Below are positions 9,458 to 31,392 of a DNA stretch of 64,000 nt, piece after piece. Below the pieces are notes generated by a model. The model saw only the letters and a list, made by a program, of their open reading frames with translations. It did not search any database and was not told the DNA's origin. A program made the position numbers and the translations under genes. The DNA comes from Streptosporangium sp. NBC_01495 (GTDB taxonomy: Bacteria > Actinomycetota > Actinomycetes > Streptosporangiales > Streptosporangiaceae), in contig NZ_CP109430.1 in the NCBI RefSeq assembly GCF_036250735.1, positions 5,022,001 to 5,086,000 of the forward strand, written 5' to 3'. Numbering within the stretch: position 1 is the stretch's first letter; every line of letters begins with the position of its first letter.

Positions 9458-9488
9458 AAGTTAAATCGAGGATGCCTCAGCTTGTCAA
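9458..9488 (-). promoter_or_regulatory. Sigma-70-like promoter for the flavin monooxygenase
   Basis: On the minus strand a perfect TTGACA (9488-9483) is followed after 18-19 bases by TTAACT/TAACTT (9464-9458). It sits about 60 bases before the TTG start at 9400 and overlaps the 3' end of the FkbH-like gene. The near-consensus -35 box is unusual for this GC-rich context. Confidence 0.55.
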
Positions 9489-11432
9489 CGCCGATTCCGT
9501 GCCCCCGCCGCCCCCGCCGCCCCCGCCGCCCCCGCCGGGCCCCCGCCGGTCCGGCACCACCCGGCCCGCGACCTCCAGCGTGAGATGGCCCGGCACGCCG
9601 ACGATCTCGCCGAGGTCGTGCTCGTACCGCGACCGCCGCGGCGTCGTCTCCGTCACGGTGAATCCGTAGTGCGGGTAGAAATCCGCCACCTTGGCGTTCT
9701 TCGCGCTCGCCACGTAGTGACCGCGCACCGCGGGAAAGCCCGCGGCGCGCGCCTGGTCGAGCACCGCGGCCAGGCACGCCTGCTCGATCCCCCGGGCGAA
9801 CACCCGGCAGCTCAGCAGGAGGTTCTCGATCAGCAACCCGTCCGGCAGCGCCCGCAGGAAGACCGCTCCGACGATCCCGTTGCTCCCGAACCGGTCGGCC
9901 GCCGACAGCGTCAGCACCCGCGAGCCTGGCCGCTCCGCCCGCTCACGCACCGCCTCCGGGGACAGGCGTTCCGTGGTGAGGTTGAACTGGTTGGTGCGCA
10001 GGGTGATCTGCGACAGCCTCGCGACGTCGGCGCCGGTGGCGGGCGCCAGCCGTACGGACACCCCCAGCCCGCGCAGGAACTCCTCGGCCGACCCCGCCGC
10101 GGACAGGAACTCCGACCGCGCCGCCTCCTCGTGGTAGCGCCGCGTCCGAACGCGATCCTCCGTGGTCACCTGGTTCGTGGTGAACCAGCCGTCGGCCAGC
10201 AGCCGGGTCGCGTGCAGCGCCGGGTCGCCGTCCAGGTGGATCACCGCGGTCTCCGGCAGCTCCGCCGCGACCGCGGCGCATTCGTGGACGCTGTCGTCGG
10301 CGAACACCACGCTGTCCCCGCCGAGGTTCAGCTCCCGCACCAGGACGCGCAGGTTCGCCGGTTTCGGCTGCCAGTTGGCGAGGATCCGGACGAAGGCGTC
10401 CTCGCGCACCACCATGTCGGGGTGCTCCCGCAGCGCGGCGAGCACGGTGTCGTGGTCGTTCTTGCTCACCGCGGCCAGCAGGACGCCCTGCGACTGCAGC
10501 TGCGCCACCACACCCTGGAACCGGCGGAAGGCCTCCCCCCACCGGCCGTGGGCCACCTCGATGCCCTCCACTCCGTCGTCACCCAGGACACCGCCCCACA
10601 GCGTCTGGTCGAGGTCGACGGCCAGCACCTTCCTGGCGCGGCCCGTCCGGGCCCGCACCAGGTGGACCAGTTCGCGCGCGTACGCGCCGAGCAGGGCGTC
10701 CGACAGGTGCGCGCGGGCGTAGACCTCGAAACGCGGATCGGACAGCTCGACCGGCGTCGTCAGCAGCGGGTCGAGGTCCATCACCACGACCGCGTCCACC
10801 GACTCGCCGAACGCCAGCAACTCGGCGTTGGCCCGCCGCCAGACCGCGCCGAGCCGCGCCCTGGACGGGTAGTCCAGCAACTGCGCCTGCCACACCCGGG
10901 GCAGCGGGACGGTGTTGAGCACGAGCGTGCCGGACCCGCTCTCGCCGAACTGCGCCGCCAGCCGCCGCCACAGCGCCAGCTTCCCCTCCAGCACGCGCTC
11001 CACGTCGTCCACCGTGAACGGCACACCGACCTCGTCGAACACGGCCGCGTGGTCGAGCACGCAGACGGTCACGTCGGGCCGCCCGGCGTACAGCGCGCTG
11101 CCGGGATCACCGAGCTCGAACGCGTACGAGCCGAAGTCCGCGAGCCGGACGTCGGGCAGATACCCGTGGCGGGCCAGCTCGCCGGTGAGCGCGGTGCGCA
11201 GCGTGCCGAGCGTGCCGTACCCGGTGATGGTCACGCTCGCGAACGGGAGCCCGGGGTGGTGTCCGCGGGCGGCCTCCACGTCGACCCGGTCCAGCAGCCG
11301 CGCCGACCGGGCGGCGTCCTCCTCGTCCATCGCGGCCAGCAGTGCCGCGACCTCGTCGTAGCGCGCCGCGAGCGCCCCCTCGCGGTGCAGCGAGCGCAGG
11401 CACGCGCGCGCCTCGGCGCTTTTCATGGTCAT
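9477..11432 (-). CDS. abyA2: FkbH-like glyceryl-ACP synthase (HAD family)
   Basis: This is a 651-residue protein of the FkbH family. It dephosphorylates 1,3-bisphosphoglycerate and loads a D-glyceryl unit onto a stand-alone ACP. The HAD nucleophile motif [10 protein letters not shown] has Asp at 273 and 275. It is followed by VSKND, KPANL and VFADDS, the other HAD motifs. The C-terminal third is GNAT-like ([15 protein letters not shown]..., [17 protein letters not shown]). The gene starts at ATG 11432, overlapping the PKS stop as ATGA with GGAGAAG before it. The tail carries a run of 12 glycines, which is odd. Together with the ACP, KAS III, E2-like protein and hydrolase at 29562-32653, this marks tetronate formation rather than methoxymalonyl-ACP synthesis, because no FkbI/K dehydrogenases are present. 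Confidence 0.93.
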
Positions 11433-14400
11433 CTCTTCTCCAGCAGTGCCGGCGCGTGCTCCGGGCCGAGCAGTTCCTCCAGCCGGAACGCGAGTTCGCG
11501 GGCGGTGCCGTGGTCGAGCACCAGCCCTACCCGCACGTCGACGCCGATCTCCCGGGAGAGCCGGGCGGCGATCTCCAGCGCGCCGAACGAGGTGATGCCG
11601 ATCTGGGTCAGGTCGTCCGCCGGGTCGATCGTGCCGTGGGAGTGCCCGAGCGCGTCGGCCACCGCCGTCAGCACCAACGACGCCAGGAGGTCGTGGCGCT
11701 CGCCCTCGGGCAGGTCGAGCAGCGGCGAGGCGGCCGCACCTTCGAACGGCGTCACCGGGAGCCCGTACGGCGGCCGGTCCTGCCCGTGCCTTCTCGGCGG
11801 GATGAGCCAGTAGCGTTCGTGCCGGAACGGGTAGGTCGGCACGGTGGCCGGGTCGGCGGCCGATCCCTCGCCGAGCACCTTCTCCCAGTCGACCCGCACA
11901 CCGCGCGCATGGGCCTGCGCGACGCCGCGCAGTACCGATCGGGCCTCCGCCGCGGGGTTCCGCACCAGCGGGATCGCCGCCGCGCCGTCTCGCTCCCCGG
12001 CCAGGCAGTCCGCGATCATGCCGGTCATCGTGGTGTCGGGCCCGATCTCGACGAAGGTGTCGACGCCGAGGCCCCGCAGGGTGAGCACGCCGTCGTGGAA
12101 GCGGACCGTGCCGCGCATCTGGGCGGCCCAGTAGTCCGGTGCGGCCAGTTCGTCCCTCGTCACCACCCGGCCCGTCCCGTTGGAGACCAGGATCGTCGCG
12201 GGTTCGCCGACGGCCAGTTCCGCCGCCGCCTCCACCAGCCGGGGCAGCGCGGGGTCCATGTGCGGCGAGTGGAAGGCCTGGCCGACCGCGAGCGCCTTCG
12301 TGCGCGCTCCCCGCGAGCGCCACCGGGCGGCCAGTTCCCGCACCGCGTCGGCGTCGCCGGAGACCACGGTCGACCGCGGCCCGTTGACCGCGGCCACGGA
12401 CACCCGTCCGCCCAGGTCCGCAAGGGAGACCCGTACCTCCTCCTCGGTGGCCCGCAGCGACACCATGCCCCCGCCTTCCGGCGCCGACTGCATCGCCAGT
12501 GCCCGTACCACGACCAGGCGCGCGGCCTCGTCCAGTGAGAGCACCCCGGCGACGTGCGCCGCGGTGAGCTCGCCGATGGAGTGGCCGAGCAGCGCGTGGG
12601 CGACCAGGCCCAGGTGCTCGGCGAGCCGGCAGAGCGCGAGCTGGGTGGCGAACAGCGCGGGCTGGGCGAACTCGGTGCGCCGCAGCAGTCCTCCCAGCGG
12701 ACCGTCGGCCGGGGCGGACACCACCTCGCCCAGGGGCGGGCCCTCGGCGTGGTGGAGTTCCCTGGCCCGGTCCAGCGCGGCGCAGGCGGTGTCGAACGCC
12801 TCGGCGTAGACCGGGAACCGTTCGTACAGCTCGCGTCCCATCCGCGCCCGCTGGGTCCCCTGGCCGCTGAACACGAACGCCACCTTCGGCGCCGGGCCCG
12901 CCGTGGCGATCGGGCTGGACGGCCCGGCGAGCGCGTCCAGCTCGCGGGCGAGTTCGGCGGCGCCGGAGCCGAGCGCCACCGCCCGGTACCTGAACTCCGA
13001 CCGCCGCCCCACCAGGGTGCGGGCCACAGCGGCGGGATCGACCTCCGGCCCGGAGCGCAGGAGGTCACGCAGCCGGGCGGCCTGCGCGCGCACCGCCTCG
13101 GGCGTCTTCCCTGACAGGACCCAGGAAACGGCCACCGGCGCGTTCCCCGCCACCGCCCCGGAGCCCGGCGATCCCGCCCCGGAGTCCGAGGCTCCCGTCC
13201 CGGAGTTCGAGGCTCCCGTCCCGGCGTCCGGCGCCTCCTCGACGACGAGGTGCGCGTTGGTCCCGCTGATCCCGAACGAGGAGACGCCGGCCCGGCGCGG
13301 CCGGTCGCCGCGCGGCCAGGGGCGGGAGCGCTCCAGCGGCTCCACCCCGCCGCCGGCCCAGTCGACCAGCGCGGACCGGTCCGCCACGTGCAGCGTCGCC
13401 GGCAGCACGCCGTGCCGCAGCGCCTGCACCATCTTGATCACACCGGCGACCCCCGCGGCGGCCTGCGTGTGCCCCAGGTTCGACTTGACCGAACCGAGCC
13501 ACAGCGGTCGCCGGCGGTCGGCGGCGCCGTAGGCCGCGATCAGGGCGCCCGCCTCGATCGGATCCCCGAGAGCGGTGCCGGTCCCGTGCGCCTCGACCGC
13601 GTCCACGTCGGCCGGGGACAGCCCCGCGCCGCGCAGAGCCGCCTCGATCACCTTCTCCTGGGCGGTCCCGCTCGGTGCGGTGAGCCCGTTGCTGGCCCCG
13701 TCGGAGTTGATCGCCGAGCCGCGGATCACCGCCAGGACGGGGTGCCCGTTGCGCAGGGCGTCCCCGAGCCGCTCCAGCACCAGCACCCCCACGCCCTCGC
13801 CGAAGCCGGTGCCGTCGGCCGCGTCGGCGAACGCCTTGCAGCGGCCGTCCGCGGCGAGCCCACCCTGGAGGGCGAACTCCACGAAGACCCGGGGCGTGGC
13901 CATCACCGTCACCCCGCCGGCGAGCGCGAGGTCGCACTCGGACCGGCGCAGCGAGTCGGCGGCCAGGTGGATCGCCACGAGCGAGGACGAGCAGGCGGTG
14001 TCGACGCTGATCGCGGGCCCCTCGAAGCCCAGGGTGTACGCCACCCGCCCGGACGCCACACTCGCCGCGTTGCCTGTCATGAGGTACCCGTCGAGCTCGG
14101 GGGGCACGTCGTCGATCGCGGGCGCGTAGTCCTGGTAGATCACGCCGGTGAACACCCCGGTCCGGCTGCCCCGCAGCGACCGCGGGACGATCCCGGCGCG
14201 CTCCAGGGCCTCCCAGGAGACCTCCAGCAGCTGCCGGTGCTGCGGGTCCATCGCCACGGCCTCCCTGGGGGAGATCCCGAAGAAGGCGGCGTCGAATCCG
14301 GCCGCGTCGTCCAGGAAGCCGCCGGCCCTCGCCCGCTCCCGCAGGGCCGGGTCCCAGCCGCGGTCCTCCGGCGGCTCGCCGACGGTGTCGACACCGTCGG

Positions 14401-14572
14401 CGAGCACCCGCCACAGGTCCTCGGGCGAGCGCACCCCGCCCGGGTAGCGGCAGGCCATCGCGACCACGGCCACCGGGTCCGGGCTCGACAGGGCGGCCAG
14501 CTCCCTCTTCACCCGGGCGAGTTCGCCGGTCGTCCACCGGAGGTACTCGACCAGCTTCTTCTCGTCAGTCAT
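11429..14572 (-). CDS. Modular PKS, terminal module: KS-AT-ACP, no thioesterase
   Basis: This is a 1047-residue single-module PKS. The N-terminal coiled-coil docking segment ([21 protein letters not shown]) matches the C-terminal docking helix of the upstream PKS. The KS has Cys194 in DTACSSS and the EAHGTGT and KSNLGH histidines. The AT has Ser665 in GHSIG and QAFHSPH, a malonyl-type signature. There is no reductive domain. The ACP (Ser995) has the unusual motif GITSFGALE in place of [10 protein letters not shown] chain leaving this module would be a beta-ketoacyl-ACP, which is what tetronate ring closure needs; the absence of a TE domain agrees. It corresponds to module 6 of abyssomicin-type PKSs. 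A Ser/Gly/Ala-rich linker separates KS and AT. Confidence 0.92.
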
Positions 14573-14586
14573 GCCGTCCGCCGTCC

Positions 14587-17500
14587 CTAGGATCGAAGCT
14601 CGGAGTCGATGAACCGGAACAGCTCCTCGGCGGTCGCCGGGACCTCCTCGGCCGCCTGCCCGCCCGGTCCCGGATCGCTCGGTCCCGGGTCGCCCGGGGC
14701 GAGCCGGCCGAGCAGATGGTCGGCCAGCGCGGCCGGGGTCGGATGGTCGAACACGACGGTCGCGGGGAGCCGCAGCCCGGTGACCTTGCCGAGCCGGTTG
14801 CGCAGCTCGACCGCGGTCAGCGAGTCGAAGCCGAGCTCCTTGAAGCTGCGGCCCTCCTCGGCTGCGTCCCCGGCGTCCCCGGGAGCCCGCCCGAGGACCG
14901 CCTCCACGTACTGGAAGACCGTCGCGGTCATCAGCTCCGCGCGGCGCGCCGGCTCGGTGTCGGCGAGCATCCGCGGCAGCGCGGGCCCGGCCCCGGAGGG
15001 GTCGTCGCCGGCCTTGGCCGGGAGTGCGCGACCGCGTACCAGGGCTCGCAACGGCGGGGCCGGATCGGGGATCTCCGCCAGCCTCGCGAGGTCCAGCCGG
15101 ACCGCGGCCAGCGACGGCTCCGCCGCCGCCATCGCCGCGTCCAGCAGCGCCAGGCCACGTCCCGGTGACAGCGGCAGCAGCCCGGACCGCGCCATCCTGG
15201 CCCGGTCGACGGCGGAGAGCGAACCGGTCATGGCGCTCTCGGACCGCCACAGTCCCCAGGCGATCGAGGTGGCGGGCAGCCCCTCGCGGGTCCTGGCCGC
15301 GGCGAGGGCGTCGAGGAAGACGTTGGCCGCCGCGTAGGCCGACTGCCCGGCGCTGCCCACGATCCCGGCCGCGGAGGAGAACAGCACGAACGCGGCGAGG
15401 TCGAGGTCCCTGGTGAGCTCGTGCAGGTTCCAGGCGCCGTCCACCTTGGGCCGCAGTACCGCGTCGAGCCGTTCCGGGACGAGGTTGGCGAGCGTCGCGT
15501 CGTCCAGGACCCCGGCCGCGTGCACCACGGCCGTCAGGGGGTGCTCGTCCGGGACGTCCGCGAGCACGCGTGCCAGCGCGCCGGCGTCCGCCACGTCCGC
15601 GGCGGCGATCGTCACCTTCGCGCCGAGCCCTTCGAGCTCCTCGCGGAGCCGTCCGGCGCCCTCCGCCCGAGCGCCCCGCCTGCTCAGCAGCAGCAGGTGC
15701 CGGGCGCCGTGTTCCCCGGCCAGGTGCAGTGCGACGAGCCTGCCCACGCCGCCGGTCGCGCCGGTGACCAGGACCGTGCCGTCGGCCCGGATCGGCCGGG
15801 GAATCCGGAGCGCCACCTTGCCCACGTGCCGGGCGAGGCCGAGGTGGCGGACGGCGTCCGGCGCCCGCCCGGCGTCCCAGGAGGTGACCGGGAGCGGCGT
15901 CAGGATCCCGCCCTCGAACAGGCCCGCGAGCTCGGCGAGCATCCGGCCGATCCGGTCCGGCCCCGCCTCGGCCAGGTCGAACGCCCGGTAGTGCACGCCG
16001 TACCGGGCGCGGACCTCATCGGGGTCTCGTACGTCCGTCTTGCCCATCTCGACGAACCGCCCGCCAGGTGCGAGCAGTTCGAGCGAGGCGTCCACGAACT
16101 CGCGGGCCAGCGAGTTCAGCACGACGTCCACGCCGCGCCCGCCGGTCGCCGCCCGCACCGCGTCGGCGAAGGACAGGTCGCGGGAGCCGGCGATCCTGCC
16201 GGGGGGCAGCCCCGCTCCTTCGAGCGCGGGCCACTTGGCGGGACTCGCGGTGCCGAACACGGTCAGCCCCCAGTGGCGCGCCAGCTGGATCGCCGCCCCG
16301 CCGACGCCACCGGCGGCGGAGTGGACCAGGAGCCACTCCCCCGGGCGGGCGCCGGCGAGGTCGCGCAGGGCGTAGTAGGCGGTGAGGAACACCGCGGGCA
16401 CGGTCGCCGCCTGGGCGAACGACATCCCCGTGGGGATGGGCACCAGCAGACGGTGGTCGGTGACGGCCTCCGGCCCGATTCCTCCGGGGATGAGGCCCAT
16501 CACCCGGTCGCCCGGCTCGATACCGGTCACGTCGTCCCCGACCGCGAGCACCACCCCGGCGCCCTCGGTGCCCAGATCCGCCGCGCCCGGGTACATGCCC
16601 AGGGCGAGCATCGCGTCACGGAAGTTGAGACCGGCGACGCGGACGGCGACCCTGACCTCCCCGGCGCCGAGGAGCCTGTCCTCGACGGGCCGGTACGCCA
16701 GGTCGTCGGCCACCCCGCTCTCGGCCGCCTCCAGGCGCCAGTTGGCCGCGCCGGACGGTACCGGGTCGCACCGCCGGAGCCGGAGCCGGGGCACCAGTGG
16801 CCCGCCGTCCCTGATCGCGAGCTGCGGCTCGCCGGACGCCACGGCGTCCAGGACCTCGGAGAGCGGTGTGGAGGCGGTCTCGGTGTCCACGACGACCACC
16901 CGGCCGGGTTCCTCGGCCTGCACGCTGCGGACCAGGCCCCAGACGCCGGCGCCGTCGAGCGCGCCGGCGCGCTCGCCCGGAACCGCCTCCACGGCGTGGC
17001 GGGTACGCACCACGAACAGCGTGCCGGCCAGCCTGCCGTCGGCCAGCCCCCGCCGGAGCGTGCCGAGCACCCGCAGCAGGGCGGCCCGGACCGCCTCCGG
17101 CACGGGCCCGGCCTCTCCTCCCGCCGGGACGACGAGCACCTCGGGCGCGGGTTCCCCGGCGTCCAGCGCCGCGAGCACCGCGCCGAGCTCCTCCTCAGTG
17201 TCTCCGGCGTCTCCGGCGTCTCCGGCGTCCCCGACGTCCCCGGTGGCGCCGAGGATCCGCGCGCGTTCGCGCGGAACGCCGGCGCCGGGGCGCACCGGTT
17301 CCCAGGCGAGCTCGTACAGCGGGTCCTCCGCGCCCGCCGCGGTGAGGTCCGCCGGGTCGGCCGCGCGGAACGTCACGGCCTCGACGCCCGCCACCGGGTC
17401 GCCCTCGGCCGTGGCCAGGTCGACCGCGACCGTGTCGTCCCCGGTGCGGCGCACGCGCACCCGCACTGCCGCGGGCGCGTCGGCGTACCGGGTGAAGCCA

Positions 17501-20500
17501 CGCCAGGCGAAGGGCAGCCGTACGGCGCCGTCGTCGGGGAACAGACCCGCGAGCCCGACGGCGTGCAGCGCGGCGTCCAGCAGCGTGGGCGCGACGCGGT
17601 ACCCGGGCGGGCCCTCCAGGAACACCTCCGCGAGGACGTCCTCCCCCGACCGCCACGCCCCGCGCAGGCCGCGGAAGGCCGGGCCGTAGTGGTAGCCCCT
17701 GGCGGCCAGGTCCTCGTACAGCCCGCCGACGTCGACGGGCACGGCGCCGGGCGGCGGCCACACGGCCGGAACCGGCCGGGCGGCGGATCCGGGGAGCGGG
17801 GCGAGCGAGCCGACGGCGTGCACCGTCCACGGCGCGCCCAGCGGATCGCCGGTGTCCGCGGGCCGGGCGTGGATCCCGACCGGGCGGAAGCCGTCCCGCT
17901 CCGCCGGGCCCACGGTCACCTGGATCTCGACCGCGCCGGAGCCGTCGAGCACCAGCGGGCGCCGGAGGGTCAGCTCGTCCACCCGCGCGGCCCCGGCCAG
18001 CTCCCCCGCGTGTCCCGCCAGTTCGGCGAGGACCGCGCCGGGGACCAGGACCGCGCCGTCCACCACGTGATCGCCCAGCCACGGCTGGCCGTCCAGGGAG
18101 AGCCGGCCGAAGAGCAGCAGGCCGTCCTCGGACGCCGCGCGCACGACCGTGGTCAGCAGCGGGTGCGCGACCGGTCGCGTGCCCGCCGGGGTCCCGGCGG
18201 GCACGCGACCGGCCGCCGCCGCGTCCAGCCAGTACCGGTGCCGGTCGAAGGCGTAGGTCGGCAGGACCGGCACCCGTTCCCGGCGCTCGCCGAGGTGCCC
18301 CGGCCAGTCGACCCGGACGCCGTTCACCCAGGCCTCGGCCACCGACGTGAGCACCCGTGCCATGCCTCCGTCGTCCCTGCGCAGCGTGCCCAGCACGGCG
18401 GGCCGCTCGACTCCGGGAACTGCCTCCAGGATCTCCTGAACTCCCATCCCGACGACGGGGTGCGGGCTCACCTCGACGAACACCTCGTGCCCGGCCGCGG
18501 CGGCCGCCTCCACCGCGGACTGCAGCAGCACCGGCCGGCGCAGATTGCGGTACCAGTACCCGGGGCTCCCGAAGCCGGTGCCGTCACCCGGCTCGATCCG
18601 CGCGCCGGTGACGGTGGAGAAGACGCCGACGGTGAACGTGCGGCCCGGCGCGGGCCGGGGCAGGATCTCCAGCAGCTCCGCCTCGAGCGCCTCGACCTGG
18701 GGCGAGTGGGAGGCGTAGTCCACGTCGACCGGCCGCACGCGCACGCCCCGCTCCTCCAGCTCCCGCCGCACGCGGTGCACCGCCCCGACCTCGCCCGCGA
18801 CGACGGTCGAGGCTGGCCCGTTGAGCGCGGCGACCGACACTGTGTCCCCTGCGTCCCCGACGTCCCCTGCGTCCCCTGCGTCCCCTGCGTCCCCTGCGTC
18901 CCCGGCGTCCCCAGCGTCCCCGGCGTCCCCCGAGACGCCGAGCGCCTCAAGAACCGCGCATACCCGCTCCCGCGAGGCCGCGACCGACAGCATCGCCCCG
19001 CCGCCCGCGATCGTGCGGATGGCCCGGCTGCGCAGCGCCACCACCGCCGCCGCCTCCTCCAGCGACAGCGCGCCCGCGGTGAGCGCGGCGGCGATCTCGC
19101 CCTGCGAGTGGCCGATGACGGCGGCGGGCCGTACGCCGAAGGACTCCCAGAGCGCGGTCAGCCCGGTCATCACGGCCCACAGGACCGGCTGCACCACGTC
19201 CACGCGCCCCAGGTCGGCGCCGCCGCGCAGGGCGTCCAGCAGCGGCCACCCGGTCACCGGGTCGAGGGCCGCGGCGCACTCGCCGACCCGCCGGGCGAAG
19301 ACCGGGGACTCGGCGAGCAGCGCGCGGGCCATGCCCTCCCACTGCGTGCCCTGGCCGGGGTAGAGGAGGACCGGCACGCGCGGATCCCTCGCGTGCCCGG
19401 TCACCGCCGAGGCCGACGGCGCCCCGTCCGCGACGTCGGCCAGGGCGGCCAGCGCCTCCTCGCGGTCGCCGGCCACGACGACCGCGCGGTGGCCGAACTC
19501 GGCCCTGGTGGTCACCAGGGCCGCCGCGACGTCGGCCAGGGCGGCCTCCGGATACCGTTCCAGGTAGGCGCGCAGCCGCCGCGCCTCGCCCCGGAGCGCG
19601 CGCGCCGACCTGGCCGACAGGACCAGCGGGACCGGGCCTTCGAAGGGTTCGGGCTCCGGCGCGGGAGCGATCTCGGGCGCGGGCGGCTCCTCGATGACGA
19701 CGTGCGCGTTGGTCCCGCTCATGCCGAAGGCGGAGACCCCGAACCGCCGCGGACGGTCCCCCGCGAGCCAGGGGGTGTTCTCGGTGAGCAGCGCGACACC
19801 GCCCCGGTCCCAGTCGACGTGGCGGGACGGCCTGTCGACGTGCAGCGTGCGCGGCAGCGTCCCGTGCTCCAGCGCCAGGACCATCTTGATGATCCCGCCG
19901 ACGCCGGCCGCCGCCTGGGTGTGCCCGATGTTGGACTTGAGCGAGCCCAGCCTGAGCGGCGGGCGGTCCCCGCGCGCCGCCCCGTACGTGGCGAGCAGCG
20001 CCTGTGCCTCCACCGGGTCGCCCAGGGTGGTGCCGGTGCCGTGCGCCTCGACCGCGTCCACGTCGGCCGGGGAGAGGCCCGCGGCGCGCAGGGCCTCCTC
20101 GATCACCCGTTCCTGGGAGGGGCCGTTGGGCGCGGTGAGCCCGTTGCTGGCGCCGTCCTGGTTCACCGCCGATCCCTTGACCACTGCCAGCACGGGATGC
20201 CCGTTGCGCCGCGCGTCCGACAGCCGTTCCACCAGCAGCAGCCCGACGCCCTCGCTGAAGCCCGTCCCGTCGGCGGCGTCGGCGAACGCGCGGCACCGTC
20301 CGTCGGGTGAGAGCCCGCGCTGGCGGCTGAACTCCACGAAGGTCGCGGGCGTCGCCATGAGCGTGGCCCCGCCGACCAGCGCGAGATCACACTCCCCGCC
20401 GCGCAGCGCCTGCTCCGCCAGGTGGAGCGCCACCAGCGAGGACGAGCAGGCCGTGTCCACGGTGATCGCGGGCCCCTGCAGGCCGTAGGTGTAGGCGATC

Positions 20501-23500
20501 CGGCCCGACGCCACGCTCCCGGCGCTGCCGGTGCCCAGGTACCCGCCGTACTCGCGCGGATCGTCGGCGGCGGCGGCGGCGACCGGCGCGGCCGGCTCCC
20601 GCGGCTCGTCTCGCGTCCCGGCGCCGGTCGCCTCGTCGAGGAAGCGGACCAGGGCGACCGGGTTCGGGTGGTCGAAGACGATCGTCCCCGGCAGGCGGAC
20701 GCCGAGCTCGTCGCTGAGCCGGTTGCGCAGCTCCACCGCCGTCAGGGAGTCGAAACCGAGGTCGCTGAAGGAGCGTTCCGGGTCGACCTCCGCGCCGCCG
20801 GCGTGCCCGAGCACCGCCGCGACCGCGTCGAGCACGAGGTGGGAGGTGTTCGGCGCCGGTGTGACCGGCGCGTCCGTCGTGTCCGGTGCCGGCGCCCGCC
20901 GTACGGCCGCGGGCCCGCGGTGCCGGTCCGCCGCCCGCGGGTCGAGGCGCGCCGCGACCACCGCGGCGGTGTCCAGCCGCAGGACTCGGTCGAACAGCGC
21001 GGTCCCGTCGGCCTCGCTCATCGGCTTGATGCCCGCCCGGCCGAGCCTGGCGACGTCGCGGTCGGTGAGCTCGGCGCCCATGCCGGCGCCGATGTCCCAC
21101 AGCCCCCAGTGGACGGTCACCCCGTGCCCGCCGGACAGCCGCCGCCGGTGGGTGATCGCCTCCAGGGCCGCGTTGGCCGCGCAGTAGCCGCCCTGCCCGG
21201 CGGTGCCGACGACACCGGCGACCGATCCGAACAGTACGAACGCGTCGAGGCCGGCGTCGCGCGTGGCCTCGTCCAGGTTGCCGGCGGCCACGGCCTTGGC
21301 CTCGATCATCCGGCGGAGCGCGCCAGCGGAGAGCCGTTCGATGGGCGCGTCCTCGATGACGCCCGCGGCGTGCACCACACCGGTCAGCGGGGTGTCCAGA
21401 GCGGCCAGCAGAGCGGCGAGGGCGCCCCGGTCGGACGGGTCGCAGGCCCGGATGGCGACGCGGGCGCCGAGCCCGGTCAGCTCGGCCTCGGCGCGGGCGG
21501 CGTCGGGGTGCCCCTCGCCACGGCGGCTGACCAGCAGGAGGTCGCGCACGCCGTGCCGCGTGACGAGGTGGCGCGCGATCCGGCGGCCGAGCGCGCCGAG
21601 GCCGCCGGTGATCAGCACGGTGCCGCCCGCGGCGCTGCGCGGCCAGGCCGCTCCGCCCGTCACGGCCCCGGCCCCGGGCTCAACCTCGGCGCCAGGCTCT
21701 GGCGCTGACTCGGGCTCGGGCTCGGGCTCGACCTGGACCTCGGCTCCGGGCTCGGTCTTGGCCCCGGGCTCGGGCTCCAGCTCGGGCGACAGCCTGGGGA
21801 CCCGCGGCACGCCGTCGCGGAGCGCGGCCTCGGGCAGCTCGGTCCCGATCGCCGCGAGCAGCGCGGGGTCGGCGGCGTCGTCATCGCCGAGGTCCAGCAG
21901 CGCAAACCGGCCGGGGTGCTCGGCCCGCGCCGCCCGTACCAGGCCCCACAACGCGGCGGTCGAGGGCCGCGCCGTCTCGCCGTCGTCGACCGCGAGGCCG
22001 CGGGTGAGGAAGACCAGCCTTCCGCCTTCCGCCTCGGCCAGCCACCGCCGGACGGCCCGGCGTGCCGCCTCCACCTCGGCGTACGGGTCGTCGCCGTCGG
22101 CTGTGAGGGCGAGCAGCACGGTGCCCGCGAGCCGCTCGGGGAGGGACCCGGCCACCGTGAAGTCACCGGCCGCGGGCGCCGGTGGTGCCACGGCCTCCCA
22201 GCGGAGGCGGTACAGCCCCGCGGCGGACGGCAGCGGGCGCAGCCGCAGCCGCTCCACGGTCAGCACGGCCTGCCCGTCGTCGCCGACAAGGTCGACCCGG
22301 TAGGTGTCCGGGTCCGTCGGAGCCGCCGGGGTCAGGTGTGCCCGCACCCTGGTCGCGTGCGCGGCGTGCAGCCGCACGCCGTCCAGGGCGTAGGGGACGC
22401 GCCGCGGCCCGTCGATCCCGTGCAGCGAGATCGTGTGCAGGACGGCGTCGAGCAGAGCCGGGTGCAGGCCGTACCGGGTGGCCTCCCCCCGGAGCGGCGC
22501 GGGGAGCTCCGCCTCGGCGTAGAGGTCCGTCCCGTCCAGCCAGGCCGCGCCCAGTCCCTGGAACGCCGGCCCGTACTCGTAGCCGTGCTCGGCCAGCAGC
22601 CGGTAGGCCGCCTCGGGACCGCCCGCGTCGAGGCGGGTTCCGCGCCCGAGGGGCAGTGCCGTGCGGCTGGGCGTGACCTCGCCGTCGGTGAGCACCGCGG
22701 TGACATGGGACGTCCATCCGGCGCCCGCGGCGCGACCGCGCAGGGTGAGTTCCCCGGCCGCGGACACGCTCACCTGGAGCTGGGTCTCCGCGGTGCCGTC
22801 CAGCTCCAGCGGTGCGTGCATCACGAAGTCGCCCAGTGCCGGACGGCCGGCGCTCGCGCCGATCGCCAGGGCCAGCTCGGCCAGCGCCGCGGCCGGGACG
22901 AGCACCCGTCCGTCGACGCGGTGCTCGGCCAGCCACGGCTGCCTGCGCGCGGACAGCGCACCGGTGAACAGCCGCGCCCCGTCCGGCAACTCGGTCGAGG
23001 CCGTGAGCAGCGGATGCGGGGAGGCGTCCAGCCCGTAGGTCGCGGGCCGCCCGTCGTCCTCGGCCGGCAGGAGCCAGTAGTGCCGTGTCTCGAACGGGTA
23101 GGTGGGCAGGTCCACCAGCCGGCCACCGGACAGGAGCGGCCCGAAGTCGACCGGTACGCCCGCCGCGTGCAACCGGCCCAGCGCGGTCCTGAAGGTGGCC
23201 GCCTCCGGCCGTCCGGGCCGTAGCAGGGGTACGGCGAGCACCCCGCCGGCGCTCTCCCGCGCCATCGCGGCGAGCGATCCGTCCGGCCCCAGCTCGGCGA
23301 ACCGGGTCACCCCGGACCGGTGCGCCGCGCGTACCGCGTCGGCGAACCGCACCGTCCCGCGGAGTTGCGCGACCCAGTAGTCCGGCGCCGACATCTCCCG
23401 CTCGCCGGCGAGCGCCCCGGTCACCGTCGAGATGACGGGGACGCGGGGGGCGTGGAAGGACAGCCCGGACACCACCCGGCGGAACTCGTCGAGGACACCG

Positions 23501-26500
23501 TCCATGTGCGCGGAGTGGAAGGCGTGACCGACCTTCAGCCGCGCGGCCTTGCGCCCGGCGTCCCTCCATCGCCCGACCAGGCGGTCGATCTCGTCCGCGT
23601 CGCCGGACAGCACCGTCGCCACGGGGCCGTTGACGGCGGCGATCTCCACCCTGCCGTCCGAGGTGGCGGCCAGCTCCACGGCCTCGGCCTCGGTGGCGGC
23701 GAAGGCGGCCATCGTCCCGCCCTCCCGGGCGGACTGCATCAGCCTGCCCCGCGCGGCGACCAGCGCGCAGGCGTCGGCCAGGCCGAGGACGCCCGCGACG
23801 TGGGCGGCGGCGAGCTCGCCGACGGAGTGGCCGATCAGGAAGTCCGGCCGCAGCCCGTGGGACTCGGCCAGCCGGTACAGGGCGACTTCCAGGGCGAACA
23901 GCGCCGGCTGGGCGTGTTGGGTCCGCCGCAGCGGGTCCGGGTCGCCGGTGACCAGTTCCCGCAGGCCGACGTGGAGGAGCGGTTCCATCGACGCGGAGAT
24001 CTCGTCGAACGCCTCCGCGTAGGGTGTGGACGTCTCCAGCAGCTCCGCGCCCATCCCGGTCCGCTGGGTGCCCTGCCCGGAGAAGAGGAACGCGAGCCGC
24101 TGGTCGGGAAGGGCGCGTCCGTCCTCGACCCGGGGGTGACGCCCGCCGTCGCGAAGCGCCGCCAGCGCGGTCGCCGCGTTCGCGGCGTCGGCGTCGACGA
24201 CGGCCCGGTGCTCGAACCGGGGGCGCCGGGCGAGGGTGAAGCCGATGTCGCGCAGCGCGGGCGCCGTGCCCGAGGTGAGGGCGTCGTGGAGCGCCCCGGC
24301 CTGTGCCCGCAACGCCGTCGCGGTCTTCGCCGACAGGACGAGCGGCACCTGGCCTCCGCCGTCCGGGACGTCCCCGGGTTCCGGGTCCACGGGTGCCTGT
24401 TCGAGGATGACGTGGGCGTTGGTGCCACTGATCCCGAACGACGACACCCCCGCCCGCCGCACCCCACCCCGCTCCGGCCAACCCACCGGATCACGAAGCA
24501 ACTCCACCCCCGACCCGTCCCACCCCACCAACGGCGACACCTCCCCCACATGCAACGTCCGCGGCAACACCCCCCGCCGCAACGCCATCACCATCTTGAT
24601 CACACCACCCACACCCGCCGCCGCCTGCGCATGACCGATGTTCGACTTCAACGACCCCAACCACAACGGCACCTTTCGACCCCGCCCATACGCCGCGATC
24701 AACGCCTGCGCCTCAATCGGATCCCCCAACCGCGTCCCCGTCCCATGCGCCTCCACCACATCCACGTCGACCGGGCTCACGTTCGCGTCCGCCAACGCCC
24801 GCGCGATCACCTCCTCCTGCGCCCGCCCGTTCGGCGCCGTCAACCCATTACTCGCCCCGTCCTGATTGACCGCCGACCCCGCCACCACCGCCAAAACCCG
24901 ATGCCCCAACACCCGCGCCCGCGACAACCGCTCAACCGCCACGACGCCTACGCCTTCGGCCCACCCCGTCCCATCGGCTCCCGCCCCAAAAGCCCGGCAC
25001 CGCCCATCGGCCGACAACCCCCGCTGACGCGAGAACTCCACGAACATCCCCGGCGACGCCATCACCGCCACCCCACCCGCCAACGCCAGCGAACACTCCC
25101 CCGACCGCACCGACCGCACCGCCAGATCCAACGCCACCAACGACGACGAACACGCCGTGTCCACCGTCAACGCCGGACCCCGCAACCCCAGCACATACGC
25201 GATCCGCCCCGACGCCACACTGATGCTGCCTCCGGTGAGGAGGTAGCCGTCAGAGGCGCCGTCGCCCTCGTGGAGCCGGGGTGTGTAGTCCGACGCGGTC
25301 GCGCCGACGAAGACGCCCGTGTCGCTCTCCTTCAACGACAGCGGATCGATGCCCGCCCGCTCCAGCGCCTCCCACGCCACCTGCAACAAAAGCCGCTGCT
25401 GCGGATCGGTGGCCAACGCCTCCCGCGGACTCATCCCGAAGAACCCGGCGTCGAACCCACCCGCCTCCCGCAGAAAACCGCCGTGCCGGGTGTAGGAGGT
25501 GCCGGGACGCTCGGGGTCGGGATCGTAAAGGGTCTCCAGGTCCCAGCCGCGATCGGCCGGGAACTCCCCGATCGCGTCGGTCCCCGACGACACCAGCTCC
25601 CACAACTCCTCCGGCGAGGCCACCCCGCCCGGGAACCGGCACCCCATCCCCACGATCACCACCGGATCGGCGCCGTGACCGGCCGTGGCGGCCGGCGCGT
25701 CCGGGACGTCCGGGGCCGTACCGCCGGTCAGGTGCCGGACCAGGGCGGCGGTGGTGGGATGGCCGAACAGCGTGGCGGCGGGCAGGTCGACATCCAGGGC
25801 GGCGCCGACCCGGTCGCGCAGCTCGACCAGGCCCAGCGAGTCCAGGCCCAGGTCCTTGAAGGTGGCGTCCTGGTCGACGCGGGCCGGATCCGAGAAGCCC
25901 AGCACCGCCGCCACCTCGTCGAGGACGCGGCGCTCCACGTCGGCCGTCCCGGCCGTCCCGGCGGGAACGGCGGGAACGGCGGGAACGGCAGGAACGGCGG
26001 GAACGGCGGGAACGGATCCCCGGCCGGGAGCCGGGTTCTCGACGGCGGCCGGCCCCTGGACGGGACCGACGTCCAGCCAGTGGTGCTCACGCTGGAAGGG
26101 GTAGGTGGGCAGGCCGACGCGGGGACCGCCGGGCGGGAACACCGCGTCCCAGTCCAGCGGCACACCGGCGGTGAACAGCCGCCCGACGGCGACCTCGACC
26201 TCGTCGTGTCTGCCGAGGACCGGCACGAACGTCGCCGCCCCGCCCTCCGCCTCCCGGCCGAGACCGCTCAGGACCGCCCCGGGGCCCGCCTCCACGAGGA
26301 TCCCGGCACCCAGCTCGCGAAGCCGGGCGAGCCCGTCGGCGAACCGCACCGGCCGGCGGGCGTGCTCCACCCAGTACTCCGGATCAGTGCTCTCGACGAG
26401 CTCACCGGTCACGGTGGACACGAACGGGATCCGGGATCTGCCGAACGGGATCCCGGCGAGCACCTCCCGAAAGTCGTCGAGCACCGGGTCCATCAGCGGG

Positions 26501-28710
26501 GAGTGGAACGCGTGGCTCACCGAAAGCCGGCGCGTGCGGTAGCCCCGCGCGGCACCGAGCGCGGCGACCTCCCCCAGCGTGCGCGTCTCCCCCGCGACGA
26601 CCACGGACTCCGGGCCGTTGACCGCGGCGATCACCGCGGTCCCGCCGGCCCTGGCGACCAGCTCGGCGACGTCCGCCTCCCCGGCGCCCACGGCGAGCAT
26701 GCCGCCGCCCGCGGGCAGCGACTCCATGAGCCGGCCTCTGGCGACGATCAGCTCCGCGGCGGAGGACAGGTCCAGGATGCCCGAGACGTGTGCGGCGGCC
26801 ACCTCTCCGATGGAGTGACCGGCCAGGAAGGACGGTTCGACGCCCAGGGAGGCCAGCAGGCGGAAGGTCGCCACCTCGACCGCGAAGATCGCGGGCTGGG
26901 TGAAGGCGGTCCGGTCGAGCAGCCGGGCCTCGGCGCTGTCCGGCTCGGCCCAGACGACGTCCTTGATCGGGCGTGGTAGCCGATCGTCCAGGGCGGCGGC
27001 CACCTCGTCGAACGCCGACCGCCAGACCGGGAAGTCCCGGTGCGCCCGGCGTCCCATGCCGAGCCGCTGACTGCCCTGCCCCGGGAACAGCACCGCGACC
27101 GGCGCGGTCCCGGACCGTCCCGTCACGACCCCGGCCGCCGGACGGCCGCCGGCCAGCGCGTCCAGTCCGGCCGGCGCGTCACCGGCGACGGCGGCGCGCC
27201 ACTCGAACGCGGTCCGCGTGGTGGCCAGGCTCCGCGGCAGCCCCGGGGGGATCTCGCCGTGCTCCGCGATGAGGTCCCGCAGCCGCGCCGCCTGCTCCCT
27301 CAGCGCGGGCTCGGTCCTGGCGCTGAGCACCAGGGGGGTCCGCGGCGCGCGGGCGTCCGGCTCCCGGGGAGATTCGGGCGTCTCAGGACGTCCGTACGGC
27401 TCGGGAGCCTCTGCCACCACGATGTGGCAGTTGGTCCCGCCCATACCGAAGGAGCTGACGCCGGCGACGAGCCGCTCGTTCTCCCGTGGCCAGGCGCCGC
27501 CCCGATCGCGTACCGCCAGGCGCCAGGCGTCCAGATCGATGTCCGGGTTCGGCTCGGAGTAGTTGAGGCTCGCGGGCAGCCGGCGTTCGCCGACGCTGAG
27601 AACGGTCTTCAGCAGGCCGGCGATCCCGGCCGCGCCCTCCAGGTGCCCGATGTTGGTCTTGACGGAGCCGACGTGCAGCACCGGACCCCCGTTTCGGGCG
27701 AGGTCGAGGGCCCTGGCCTCCACCGGGTCCCCGACCCGCGTGCCGGTGCCGTGCAGCTCGACGTACTGCACGTCGGACGGCGACACCTCGGCCGCCGCCC
27801 ATGCCCTCCGGATCACCTCGGCCTGCGCCTCCGCGCTCGGCACGGTGAGCCCGTCGGTCGTGCCGTCGTTGTTGACGGCGCTCCCGAGCAGCACCGCGTA
27901 AACGCGGTCACCGTCCTCGACCGCCGCGTCCAGCGGCTTGAGCAGCACCAACCCGGCGCCCTCACCGCGAACGTAGCCGTTGGCCCGGCGGTCGAAGGTG
28001 TGGCAGCGCCCGTCAGGGGACAGCCCGCCGAAACGCGCGACCGCGGCGGTTCCGGCCGGGTCCACGATCAGATTCACGCCGCCGGCGAGCGCGAGCCGGG
28101 TCTCGCCGCGCCGCAGGCTCTCGACGGCCAGGTGCACCGCGACCAGCGACGACGACTGGGCGGTGTCCACCGCGATGCTCGGCCCCCGCAGGCCGAGGGC
28201 GTAGGACACCCGGTTGGCGATGATGCCCCTGGTCGTCCCCGTGAGCGTGTGACGCCCGATCGCCGAGGCGCGCGACAGCGCGGCGTACTCGTCGGCGATG
28301 GAGCCGACGAACACGCCGGTCGCGCTGCCCGAGAGCGTGGCGGGGACCAGGCCCGCGTCCTCCAGCGCCTCCCAGGCCAGCTCCAGCACAAGCCGCTGCT
28401 GCGGGTCCATCGCCGCGGCCTCGCGCGGTGAGACGCCGAAGAACCCGGCGTCGAACCCGCCGATGTCATCGAGGTAGCCGCCGTACCGGACGCCCGGGTT
28501 GTCCCGGGCGATTCCGGCCAGGACGGCGGAGGAGTCCCGGTGTCCGGGGATCTCGCGGACGGCGCCGCGCCCCTCGTCGAGCAACCGCCAGAAAGCGCGC
28601 GGGTCCGGCGCCCCCGGGAGGCGGCACGCTGTTCCGATCACCGCGATCGGCCGGGACACCTGCTGGTCGTTGCTGCTCAACTGCTGCCTCACTCTCGCTC
28701 GTGACGGCAT
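14587..28710 (-). CDS. Modular PKS: KSQ loading module plus two extension modules, second KS truncated
   Basis: This is a 4707-residue PKS. The loading module has KSQ (Gln185 in DTAQSSS), malonyl-type AT (Ser633, HAFH) and ACP (Ser958), giving an acetyl starter. Extension module A has KS (Cys1187), malonyl-type AT (Ser1629), DH (His1930, HxxxGxxxxP), KR (Tyr2509) and ACP (Ser2655). Extension module B has a KS with active Cys2755 but no N-terminal part, methylmalonyl-type AT (GHSQG Ser3202, YASH), DH (His3548), ER (near 4027), KR (LDD motif, Tyr4459) and ACP (Ser4630), then a docking helix [13 protein letters not shown] begins directly after the linker at DDP (2718) and lacks about 134 residues relative to KS-A. 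The two extension modules match abyssomicin modules 1 and 5; modules 2-4 are absent. The ATG at 28710 has a weak ribosome site; GTG or TTG codons a few residues on are alternatives. Confidence 0.93.
17200..17241 (-). repeat. 9-bp in-frame tandem repeat in the DH-ER linker of PKS
   Basis: TCTCCGGCG-type units encode a GDA/GDV tripeptide repeat ([14 protein letters not shown]) in the linker after the dehydratase of extension module B. It keeps the reading frame and probably makes a flexible spacer. Confidence 0.85.
18845..18930 (-). repeat. 9-bp in-frame tandem repeat inside the methylmalonyl AT
   Basis: Nine to ten copies of a TCCC(C)TGCG-type unit encode a long Gly-Asp-Ala repeat. Unlike the other repeats this one lies within a catalytic domain, between the AT large subdomain (after [12 protein letters not shown]) and [15 protein letters not shown]. 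Normal ATs have only a short loop here, so it is an expanded surface loop. Confidence 0.9.
24440..25670 (-). other. KS tract with foreign-looking codon use (mosaic)
   Basis: Most of the KS of extension module A is written with TTG leucine, GGG/GGT glycine, GTG/GTT valine, AAT and AGT codons. The flanking domains use GGC, CTG, GTC/GTG and AAC. The shift is abrupt near 24440 and 25670, with an ordinary-looking patch at about 25220-25310 that codes for the variable substrate-side region. The encoded protein stays a normal KS, so this looks like a gene-conversion tract from another PKS rather than an insertion. Confidence 0.7.
25961..26013 (-). repeat. 9-bp in-frame tandem repeat in the AT-ACP linker of the loading module
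   Basis: About six copies of GGGAACGGC encode a Val-Pro-Ala repeat ([19 protein letters not shown]) between the loading AT and its ACP. Pro-Ala repeats make stiff, extended tethers. Confidence 0.9.
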
Positions 28711-28800: not shown

Positions 28801-29565
28801 TCAGTCCCGGCCGGTGAGCGCCAGCCACACCGTCTCCGCCACGTCCCGCGACCGCGGGGTCAGGTAGAAGTGATCCCCGGGGAAGGTCCTGAGCCGGAAC
28901 CCGCCGGAGGTGTTGTCCCGCCACCGCTCCACCTCGGCGACGGCCGCCAGCGGGTCGCGGTCCCCGGTCAGCGCCACGATCGGGCAGCCGACCCGCGCGC
29001 CCGGCGCCGGGACGTACGCCCGCAGGGCGCGGTAGTCGCTGCGCAGCGCCGGAAGGACGAGATCGCGCAGGTCCTCGTCCTCCAGTGCCAGGGGGGAGGT
29101 CCCGCCGAGGCGTACGACCTCCTCGATCAGGGAGCGGTCGTCACGCAGGATCGCCGGGTCGACCCGGGTCAGGGCCGGAGCGCGCCCGCCCGAGACGAAG
29201 AGCAGATCCGGGGCGGCGCCGAGGCTCCGCCCGCCGAGCAGCGCGGCCTCGAAGGCCACCAGGGCGCCCATGCTGTGCCCGAAGAAGGCGAGGGGCGCGG
29301 CCGGCCGCTCCTCGGCGACCACCGCCGCGATCCGGCGGGCGAGTTCCCGCAGGTCCTCGACGGCCGGTTCGCCGCGCCGGTCCAGGCGGCCCGGGTACTG
29401 GACGGCGAGCACGCGCACCGCCGGCGAGAGCTCCTGGGCCAGCGGGACGAAGAAGCCGGCCGACCCACCGGCGTGGGGGAACACCACCACGCAGGGGGCA
29501 CCGGCGACGGCCGGGGCGAACTGCCGCAGCCAGTCGCTCCTGGTCGACGTCCCCGTCGCGGTCAT
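28801..29565 (-). CDS. abyT: Type II thioesterase
   Basis: This 254-residue alpha/beta hydrolase of the external (type II) thioesterase family removes stalled or mis-primed acyl groups from PKS carrier proteins. The nucleophile is Ser98 in FFGHSMGA. The oxyanion region reads VVFPHAGGSAGFF. The downstream acid is in LTGDRDPL and the catalytic His in FPGDHFYL. The start overlaps the hydrolase stop as ATGA. It lies just before the large PKS gene and is translationally coupled to the tetronate cassette, so it is made together with the machinery it edits. It cannot replace an offloading domain. Confidence 0.92.
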   Translation of the reverse strand: MTATGTSTRSDWLRQFAPAVAGAPCVVVFPHAGGSAGFFVPLAQELSPAVRVLAVQYPGRLDRRGEPAVEDLRELARRIAAVVAEERPAAPLAFFGHSMGALVAFEAALLGGRSLGAAPDLLFVSGGRAPALTRVDPAILRDDRSLIEEVVRLGGTSPLALEDEDLRDLVLPALRSDYRALRAYVPAPGARVGCPIVALTGDRDPLAAVAEVERWRDNTSGGFRLRTFPGDHFYLTPRSRDVAETVWLALTGRD

Positions 29566-30644
29566 CGGCCCGTCCTCGCGCGGGCCGCCCCAAGGGCGGC
29601 GGTGAGCGCCGCCGTGACCCGGGGGTCGGCGTCGGGCCGCATCTCCTGTATCGCGAGCAGGCTCCACACCCGGGTCTCCGCCAGGTACGACGGGGCGCCG
29701 TGCACGTCGGGGTGCTCGATCAGCCTCAGGTCGCGCACGGAGCGCCTGAGCCGCTCGGTGTCCCCCGGGGGGATTACCTCGTCCCCGGTCGCGGTCACGG
29801 CGGCGAACGGGATCTCCAGGTCGCGCAGGCTCCGGTCGTCGAGCGCCCAGTGCCGGATGTGCGCGAACACCGCGTCGGGCGACACGCCCGCCAGGTGCGC
29901 CAGGGTGTCCCTGGTGATCCTCGGCACCCGCGCCTGCCAGGCGGTGTCGGTGAAGAAGTCGTGGATCGGCGTCCCGTTGCCGACCAGGCCACGGATCCGC
30001 CGATCGCGCAGCGCGGCGGCGATCGCCAGATGACCGCTGAAACTCAGCGCGAGCAGATACGTCTCGGACACCTTCGCCCGCCCGGCCAGGGCGTCCAGTA
30101 TCGCCGGGAACAGCCGCCAGCCGTCCGGGCCGTACCGCAGGGGGCTCTCGCCGACGCCGGGGAGTTCGGCCACGACCCCGGCCATCCCGAAGGCCGCGAT
30201 CTGCGGCAGCACCGGGGCCCACTGCTCCTTGGGGCTCACGATGCCGCCGGTCACCACCAGCAGCGGGCGAGGCTCCTGGGCGGACAGGCCCGTGGCCCAC
30301 ACCTTGACGGGGAGCCCGCCGACCTCGACGGTGACCGGTTCGATCCCGGGCTGCTCCCGCCGCCAGCGTTCGAACGCCTCGACGCAGCGCGCGAGGGCCC
30401 GTTTGCGGCCCGGACCGTCGACGAACGGGAACCGTCCCATGTTGTAGTACTGGCAGGCCGCCAGCGTCTCACCCGCGGCCTCCGCCTCCTCCCCCGCGCG
30501 GATCCACTCGTGGGGCCACGAGCCCGGCTCGTCACCGGTGTCGGAGGTGATCCGCTCCAGCAGGCTCGCGTAGTGGCCGGCGGGCAGGTTCTGTGAGATC
30601 GCGTGCGCCACCACGAACCGCTTGAGCTCGGACAGGTCGTTCAT
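29562..30644 (-). CDS. abyA5: Alpha/beta hydrolase of tetronate cassette (acetate-eliminating, AbyA5/Agg5-like)
   Basis: This 360-residue FrsA-like alpha/beta hydrolase has a helical N-terminal cap (~100 residues). The core contains VVTGGIVSPKEQW, ELPGVGESPLRYGPDG and the nucleophile elbow ALSFSGHLAIA with Ser203. An Asp (TATGDEVIP) and a His (LIEHPDVHG) follow in triad order. The elbow is S-x-S-x-H rather than G-x-S-x-G. In agglomerin and abyssomicin biosynthesis this family eliminates acetate from the acetylated hydroxymethyl tetronate to create the exocyclic double bond. GGAGG stands six bases before the ATG, so the start is firm even though it overlaps the preceding gene by 113 bases. Confidence 0.88.
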   Translation of the reverse strand: MNDLSELKRFVVAHAISQNLPAGHYASLLERITSDTGDEPGSWPHEWIRAGEEAEAAGETLAACQYYNMGRFPFVDGPGRKRALARCVEAFERWRREQPGIEPVTVEVGGLPVKVWATGLSAQEPRPLLVVTGGIVSPKEQWAPVLPQIAAFGMAGVVAELPGVGESPLRYGPDGWRLFPAILDALAGRAKVSETYLLALSFSGHLAIAAALRDRRIRGLVGNGTPIHDFFTDTAWQARVPRITRDTLAHLAGVSPDAVFAHIRHWALDDRSLRDLEIPFAAVTATGDEVIPPGDTERLRRSVRDLRLIEHPDVHGAPSYLAETRVWSLLAIQEMRPDADPRVTAALTAALGAARARTGR

Positions 30645-31392
30645 CGAATGCCTCCAGCGCGTCCTTGATCTCGGTGAGTACGTCGGCGCCCTCCGCGCCG
30701 TCGATCACGCGGTGGTCGAACGCCATGGAGAGCCGCATGACCGGGGCGATCCCGATCGCGCCGTCCCGGACGACCGGGCGGTCGGCGATCCGGCCGACCC
30801 CCAGGGTGATCGTGGTGCCGCCGACGGAGTGGAAGCCGTCGATCGCCCGGTGACCGAGCGAGGTGACGCTGAACGTCCCGGTGACGGCGGGCCGCCGGTC
30901 GAGCAGTCCCGCCGCCTCCCGGAACCGGTCGAGCGCCACCTGCCACGGGAGCCGCCGCAGGGCCCGGATACCGGCGAACTCCTCGGCGGTGTCGGGGTCG
31001 GCCTCGATCGCCCGGTCCAGGTGCGCCTGGACGTCGGCGAGGCTCGCGCTCTCCAGGCGGGGGATCACCGTCGCCAGCACGACCCGGCGGCCGTCCAGCG
31101 TCTTGTCGAGGGTGACCTTCGCGGCGACGGTGTCGTACGTGGCGACGACCGGGTCCAGTCGGCCCTGGATCGCCGCGTTCGCCTCTGGGTGCTTGCGCAG
31201 CACGTCCGCGGCCGCGTGCACGACGTAGGAGACGACCGACCGGCGCTCACCCGCCCGCCGGGCCCGCTCGCGGCCCGCGACGATCGCCGTCGCGTCCACC
31301 TCGGTGTCGAGGAAGACCGGCGAGAAGTCACGGATCTGGTCGAGGAAGAAAAGGGTGTGGCGGCGCTGGGTGGCGAAAGGCTGCTCGGTCAA
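30532..31392 (-). CDS. abyA4: 2-oxoacid dehydrogenase E2-like acyltransferase (AbyA4/Agg4-like)
   Basis: This protein of about 286 residues is the catalytic domain of a dihydrolipoyl acyltransferase without lipoyl or E1-binding domains. It has an ERRSVVSYVVHAAADVLRKHPEANA core, a TGTFSVTSLG segment and the catalytic MAFDHRVIDGAEGADVL motif near the end. In tetronate pathways such stand-alone E2 domains acetylate the primary hydroxyl of the new ring. The start appears to be TTG at 31392, overlapping the ACP stop; the open frame continues upstream only through the ACP gene. The last ~37 residues are arginine/proline-rich, run 113 bases into the next gene, and look unlike an E2 C-terminus. An additional base or a late frameshift is possible. 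Confidence 0.85.
   Translation of the reverse strand: MTEQPFATQRRHTLFFLDQIRDFSPVFLDTEVDATAIVAGRERARRAGERRSVVSYVVHAAADVLRKHPEANAAIQGRLDPVVATYDTVAAKVTLDKTLDGRRVVLATVIPRLESASLADVQAHLDRAIEADPDTAEEFAGIRALRRLPWQVALDRFREAAGLLDRRPAVTGTFSVTSLGHRAIDGFHSVGGTTITLGVGRIADRPVVRDGAIGIAPVMRLSMAFDHRVIDGAEGADVLTEIKDALEAFDERPVRAQAVRGGARDLTEPARRPLREPAGADHLRHR

Follow-up and report, generated by a model that had tools for sequence, protein, structure and literature searches.

A probable recent deletion derivative of an abyssomicin-type polyketide synthase in Streptosporangium sp. NBC_01495

The window analyzed here is a stretch of 64,000 nucleotides from Streptosporangium sp. NBC_01495 (NCBI RefSeq assembly GCF_036250735.1, contig NZ_CP109430.1, positions 5,022,001 to 5,086,000 of the forward strand), and positions below are counted from its first letter. 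It carries a modular polyketide synthase (PKS) of the abyssomicin (spirotetronate) type, in which one ketosynthase (KS) lacks its N-terminal third, a gap that a first-pass annotation had read as either a deletion scar or an assembly join. LM denotes the loading module, A and B the two extension modules of the longer gene, and M1 to M6, with KS1 to KS6, the extension modules and ketosynthases of related PKSs. The PKS features, all on the minus strand, were as follows.

14587..28710, minus strand: fused PKS gene, 4707 aa, LM(KSQ-AT-ACP) - KS_A-AT-DH-KR-ACP - KS5 remnant-AT-DH-ER-KR-ACP (open reading frame and translation, domain search)
27421..28656, minus strand: loading-module KSQ with the motif DTAQSSS (motif and domain comparison)
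24391..25674, minus strand: KS_A, a full-length KS of the KS1/KS2 clade, where the putative first join (M1 removed) is placed (segment matches, tree)
20626..24390, minus strand: remainder of module A, comprising linker, AT, DH, KR and ACP, orthologous to M2 of the relatives (segment matches)
20560..20565, minus strand: second join, the DD codons (GACGAT), probably common to the pre-KS linker and the KS5 interior (comparison with relatives)
19675..20565, minus strand: KS5 remnant, 297 aa, in which the first 133 residues are missing and the Cys and both His motifs remain (profile match, alignment, tree)
14716..19674, minus strand: remainder of module B, comprising AT, DH, ER, KR and ACP, orthologous to M5 of the relatives (segment matches)
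11429..14572, minus strand: third PKS gene (AbyB3-like), with docking domain and KS6-AT-ACP, intact (domains, Pfam, segment matches)

In translation, the frame of 14587-28710 was open across the flagged join (20560-20565), with no stop in the 4707-aa reading frame, so that the frame is preserved as had been claimed. After ACP_A and a poly-Ala linker, it runs on through a 25-residue string in which the first D codon lies at 20565. Pfam ketoacyl-synt covered profile positions 139-252 of 252 only in the module B KS, and the active-site Cys was 37 residues past DDP, both of which bear out the truncation described earlier. Full-length KS matches were counted by eye in reading frames of at least 1000 aa, leaving aside rows in shorter frames (12 in this genome, 26 in three other genomes). 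In this genome, 30 of 31 matches were full, extending from profile position 4 or below to 251 or above, with the module B KS as the sole exception; all 46 in the three other genomes were full length, ending at position 250 or beyond. Among ketoacyl-synt profile matches in the whole genome, no stand-alone KS N-terminus was found. In a DNA search of 16 genomes of the genus, among the matches listed, the junction DNA was crossed by the window alone, the other matches starting at query base 520 or beyond, in the KS of other PKSs. In-frame short tandem arrays (Gly-Asp-Ala repeats) were also seen at 18840-18930, in AT_B, and at 17200-17252, between DH_B and ER_B.

To find relatives, 345 genomes of the order were searched for an AbyA5-like marker gene beside a PKS (E <= 1e-40). 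The marker was matched in 45 genomes, the window's own included, and had no match in the other 15 genomes of the window's genus. Stretches from six matching genomes were used, and four of these, G089, G090, G073 and G031, held the whole PKS; in the other two, G088 and G094, the contig breaks off inside KS1. All four had the same layout in three genes, LM-M1-M2-M3, M4-M5 and M6. Abyssomicin has the same module count and gene split, a loading module plus six extension modules (PMC3625739). KR was not found in M4 of the relatives with the queries used, and an inactive KR is reported for abyssomicin M4 (PMC3625739). With the queries used, DH was not found in M1-M3 of G031, and GDAGDAG was not present in M5 of any of the four relatives.

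To assign the modules that remain, 31 segments of the window proteins were each matched against the four relatives, which together have 28 modules. Segments of LM, module B and M6 had their best matches in LM, M5 and M6, respectively, of every relative with a hit (one short module B segment had none in G089), and module A from the post-KS linker onward matched M2 best in all four, the G031 linker by one bit. KS_A resembled both M1 and M2, its N-terminal piece being closer to M1 in three of four relatives. At protein sites that differ between M1 and M2 in three relatives, scored by eye, the first 12 were 8 M1-like, 2 M2-like and 2 neither, and the later 75 were 7 M1-like, 46 M2-like and 22 neither. 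In a KS tree, the N-part of KS_A grouped with the M1 KS (93/86), its C-part was not resolved within the KS1/KS2 clade, and the KS5 remnant grouped with the M5 KS (98/94). By these comparisons the body of M1, modules M3 and M4, and the N-terminal third of KS5 have been lost, and the body of M2 is retained. The first-pass annotation had listed modules 2, 3 and 4 as missing; three modules plus a KS N-terminal third are indeed gone relative to the abyssomicin layout, but the modules are M1, M3 and M4.

The lost modules were absent from the assembly. With the post-KS parts from G089 as queries, the bodies of M1, M3 and M4 had no ortholog on either contig of the genome; the best matches were full-length at 41% (M1) and 45-47% (M3) or partial at 52-53% (M1, M4). 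Short matches comprised AT pieces at 55-61% and KR pieces at up to 66%, some of them within the window itself; AT and KR pieces of the retained modules were 72-80% identical to G089. Among 83 plasmid records compared with a relative, the best coverage was 18%. With three extension modules, one of which has a truncated KS, the locus is a deletion derivative of an abyssomicin-type cluster and not a complete member. The reverse polarity, in which the short line is ancestral and the relatives expanded through module duplication, would account for the smaller number of modules in the window and for the likeness of KS1 and KS2 in the relatives, as after a duplication. However, the six extension modules are all present in G031, which is the most distant of the relatives, with its KS of M3, M4, M5 and M6 each in the corresponding clade, and a KS without a third of its length is implausible as an ancestral state, which leaves this polarity hardly credible.

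Since the window modules map to LM, KS1/KS2, M2, M5 and M6 of the relatives, we infer two joins, one of about 10 kb at the flagged site and one of about 5.4 kb in KS_A, in place of the single loss of about 14 kb previously proposed for the flagged site. The stretch missing at the flagged join corresponds to 9660-10122 nt in all four relatives, and its loss would have taken out M3 and M4, with the gene boundary between them, and the beginning of KS5. A 16-residue string at the join was native KS5 sequence lying 133 residues into the domain in all four relatives, close to the jump of about 135 residues, to a 13-residue string, that had been noted before. The KS5 of the relatives contain a corresponding 17-residue string, which identifies DDPREYGG of the window as native KS5 interior. 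The linkers before KS1 and KS2 in the relatives end in DD, as does the linker before KS3 in three of four (DPDG in G031), and the linker of the window ends ...AAAAADD. The DDP described earlier as the usual KS start is linker-like, but the same residues are also KS5 interior in all four relatives. With DD at both the linker ends and the native KS5 site, the DD codons common to both sides are probably the join site, which would span 6 nt, extending to at most 9 nt had the lost KS3 started with DDP. A linker is thus joined to a KS interior that is not homologous to it, with 6-9 nt in common and without a near-identical repeat. A weak, short-period, GC-rich tandem array adjoins the join at 20565-20596 (TRF score 43).

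For the join in KS_A, removal of one module by KS1/KS2 recombination corresponds to 5331-5484 nt in all four relatives and leaves an intact KS, as in the window. KS1 and KS2 were 93, 93, 96 and 81% identical at the DNA level in G089, G090, G073 and G031, respectively, and the longest identical runs were 838, 838, 298 and 57 nt. In the rapamycin PKS, laboratory module losses by recombination between similar PKS repeats are described (PMC5663706). KS1 and KS2 also look homogenised within G089, G090 and G073, and their C-parts are identical in G073.

Both joins might instead have arisen during assembly, the strain having a full seven-module line from which M1 was dropped by KS1/KS2 collapse together with about 10 kb around M3-M4. 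The KS_A join could involve a near-identical repeat of the kind that collapses, as the long identical KS1/KS2 runs in G089 and G090 illustrate, and contigs of three draft assemblies (G088, at the end of G088:C32, G094, at the start of G094:C248, and the Streptomyces contig L047, at its end) stop inside KS1, as expected for a near-identical repeat. Misassembly of PKS genes is a known problem (PMC7176366), and two abyssomicin-like clusters are described as resequenced because they were fragmented (PMC11812412). Opposing this, no collapsible repeat lies at the flagged join, the two sides of which are non-homologous with only 6-9 nt in common, and a search of 14.0-29.5 kb (20-nt exact seed) gave one repeat family only, 69-71% identical. 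Six copies of the 16S gene share one of the two contigs that make up the genome, which suggests long reads, and no ortholog of the missing modules was present on either contig, not even as a stray piece. An assembly join, one of the two possibilities raised originally, is less likely than real deletions. A deletion scar, the other, fits three modules and a KS N-terminal third missing with the frame kept.

The KS5 remnant has decayed little. Its ratio of nonsynonymous to synonymous rates (dN/dS) was 0.08-0.09 against G089, G090 and G073, with no lower value among the 16 segments, and it had 4 window-specific changes among 244 columns invariant in the four relatives, compared with 14 among 221 for the C-part of KS6. 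In a simulation of neutral drift in which the window branch was assigned half of dS 0.55, the probability of 4 or fewer changes was about 0.3 when drift covered 4% of the branch, falling to 0.09 for 6% and to 0.005-0.015 for 8%, which would place the loss roughly within the last 8% of the branch, given the assumed length. Because decay is so slight, the loss should be recent, provided that the assembly is correct and that selection no longer acts on the remnant.

Taken together, the locus is probably a recently shortened abyssomicin-type PKS, a natural deletion derivative whose pathway is probably dead. If the allele is present in the cell as it is in the assembly, the ancestor would have had three genes encoding LM and six extension modules. 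Recombination of the similar KS1 and KS2 may have removed M1, joining one intact KS to the rest of M2, and a short-homology deletion of about 10 kb from the M2-KS3 linker into KS5, reconstructed from the flanks of the relatives, would have removed M3, M4 and 133 residues of KS5 and merged the first two PKS genes into one reading frame. The resulting line would load acetyl, carry out one extension on module A and then stall on ACP_A, since neither folding nor chain acceptance is expected of the KS5 remnant. A type II thioesterase would clear stalled chains, and the tetronate, tailoring and export genes, which look intact, would probably be left with no substrate.

Several points weigh against this interpretation. 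The join is known from one assembly of one isolate, and the low dN/dS of the remnant fits an assembly error equally with a recent deletion; against G031, dN/dS of the remnant was 0.158 and not the lowest, KS_A being at 0.104. The microhomology at the flagged join depends on an ancestral left flank reconstructed from relatives. KS1/KS2 similarity was likewise measured in relatives, which stand in for the pre-loss pair of the window, and the two KS were less alike in G073 (298-nt run) and G031 (57 nt). At the DNA level, sites in the N-part of KS_A were mixed (15 M1-like, 12 M2-like, 3 neither), so that the crossover is poorly placed. No Ku family match was found in the 11.1 Mb genome. Ku-dependent end joining, documented in Streptomyces (PMC5869714), is therefore an unlikely route, and slippage or another short-homology pathway appears more likely; for the same reason, a non-homologous deletion in the cell is somewhat less expected, which lends the assembly explanation some weight, as does the slight decay of the remnant.

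The remnant keeps the Cys-His-His motifs (22 residues in all) but, by profile coverage and alignment, not a complete KS N-terminal domain. In the thiolase fold, the lost first third includes strands of the N-terminal core, and 42 positions in this third were invariant among five intact aligned KS (counted by eye). Module B most likely cannot condense, leaving the pathway silent. The possibility was considered that the shortened line works, with the KS5 remnant tolerated or bypassed (for example by transfer from ACP_A to KS6) and a small acyl tetronate made. The open reading frame, the retained Cys and both His motifs, the low dN/dS of the remnant and an intact last PKS gene with docking domain would be in keeping with such a line. 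It is nevertheless very improbable, given the 42 invariant positions in the lost third, a KS5 that is full length in the four relatives, and a genome in which no KS match covers the N-terminal part alone.

The remaining cluster genes assigned by resemblance to the published cluster were as follows.

28801..29562, minus strand: type II thioesterase, AbyT-like (Pfam Thioesterase; 71-72% in G089, G090 and G073)
29562..30644, minus strand: AbyA5-like hydrolase, the marker gene for relatives (Pfam FrsA-like)
30532..31629, minus strand: AbyA4-like acyltransferase, true start probably inside the listed reading frame (Pfam 2-oxoacid_dh; 79-80% in relatives)
31619..32653, minus strand: AbyA1-like KAS III (Pfam ACP_syn_III; 80-82% in relatives)
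9477..11426, minus strand: AbyA2-like protein, 649 aa (frame conserved, 76-77% in G089, G090 and G073)

The tetronate genes A1, A4 and A5 were present in the expected order by Pfam. No Pfam family was found for the AbyA2-like protein, which we take to be FkbH (glyceryl-loading), and frames of 60-260 aa below 36 kb, searched crudely by motif, gave no candidate for a discrete ACP (A3). Families identified included KAS III, 2-oxoacid acyltransferase, luciferase-like monooxygenase, ABC transporter parts, P450s, aldo/keto reductase, regulators, an MFS transporter and the type II thioesterase. In G090 and G073, genes were open and syntenic from A1 as far as a regulator that lies outside the window, about 9 kb past its start, and in G089 synteny reached the ABC transporter; sense frames outside the PKS were 62-86% identical in these three genomes, and G031 was compared in the PKS and A5 marker only. 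Two further listed rows (56-60%) were rejected as genes, being shadow frames antisense to the thioesterase and A2. An AOC_like PF18678 match (121.5 bits) was located at G000:C1:5019253-5019621 (L062 17253-17621), about 2.4 kb before the window start; AbyU, the Diels-Alderase, is presumably a member of this family. The sole PF18678 match of G089 lies about 1.4 Mb from its cluster. A 121-aa frame beside the P450s, with no solved structure, was set aside; it lies partly antisense to the PF18678 match, perhaps as a shadow frame.

If real, the locus would be a natural example, datable at least roughly, of a modular assembly line for an antibiotic dying while its tailoring genes are still open, and would combine a tidy module loss via twin ketosynthases with an untidy loss that breaks a ketosynthase. 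It would be a natural test of whether a module runs without a complete ketosynthase, and a warning for genome mining, as annotation would say tetronate pathway though the core is probably broken. Were the line to work after all, a two-step natural deletion would have turned an abyssomicin line into a small acyl tetronate line. In the titles and abstract openings of the open-access literature searched, neither this cluster nor a KS with a natural N-terminal truncation was described.

The locus is a known kind of cluster shortened by a known kind of process. It resembles the abyssomicin PKS AbyB1-B3 of Verrucosispora maris (PMC3625739) in its loading module, DH-KR modules and DH-ER-KR module before a last KS-AT-ACP gene, and the abyssomicin cluster in its tetronate genes, type II thioesterase, luciferase-like monooxygenase, P450s and ABC transporter (PMC3625739); a further shared feature is the PF18678 match close to the cluster. 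It differs in having three and not six extension modules, the first two PKS genes fused, a KS5 without its N-terminal third, and A2 located after the PKS genes (PMC3625739). The order of retained modules is that of the intact G089, G090, G073 and G031 clusters which, unlike the window, keep M1, M3, M4 and a full KS5. The proposed loss of M1 by recombination between PKS repeats is like the 'accelerated evolution' of the rapamycin PKS (PMC5663706), but those strains still yield shortened products, whereas the second join of the window is non-homologous and cuts a KS.

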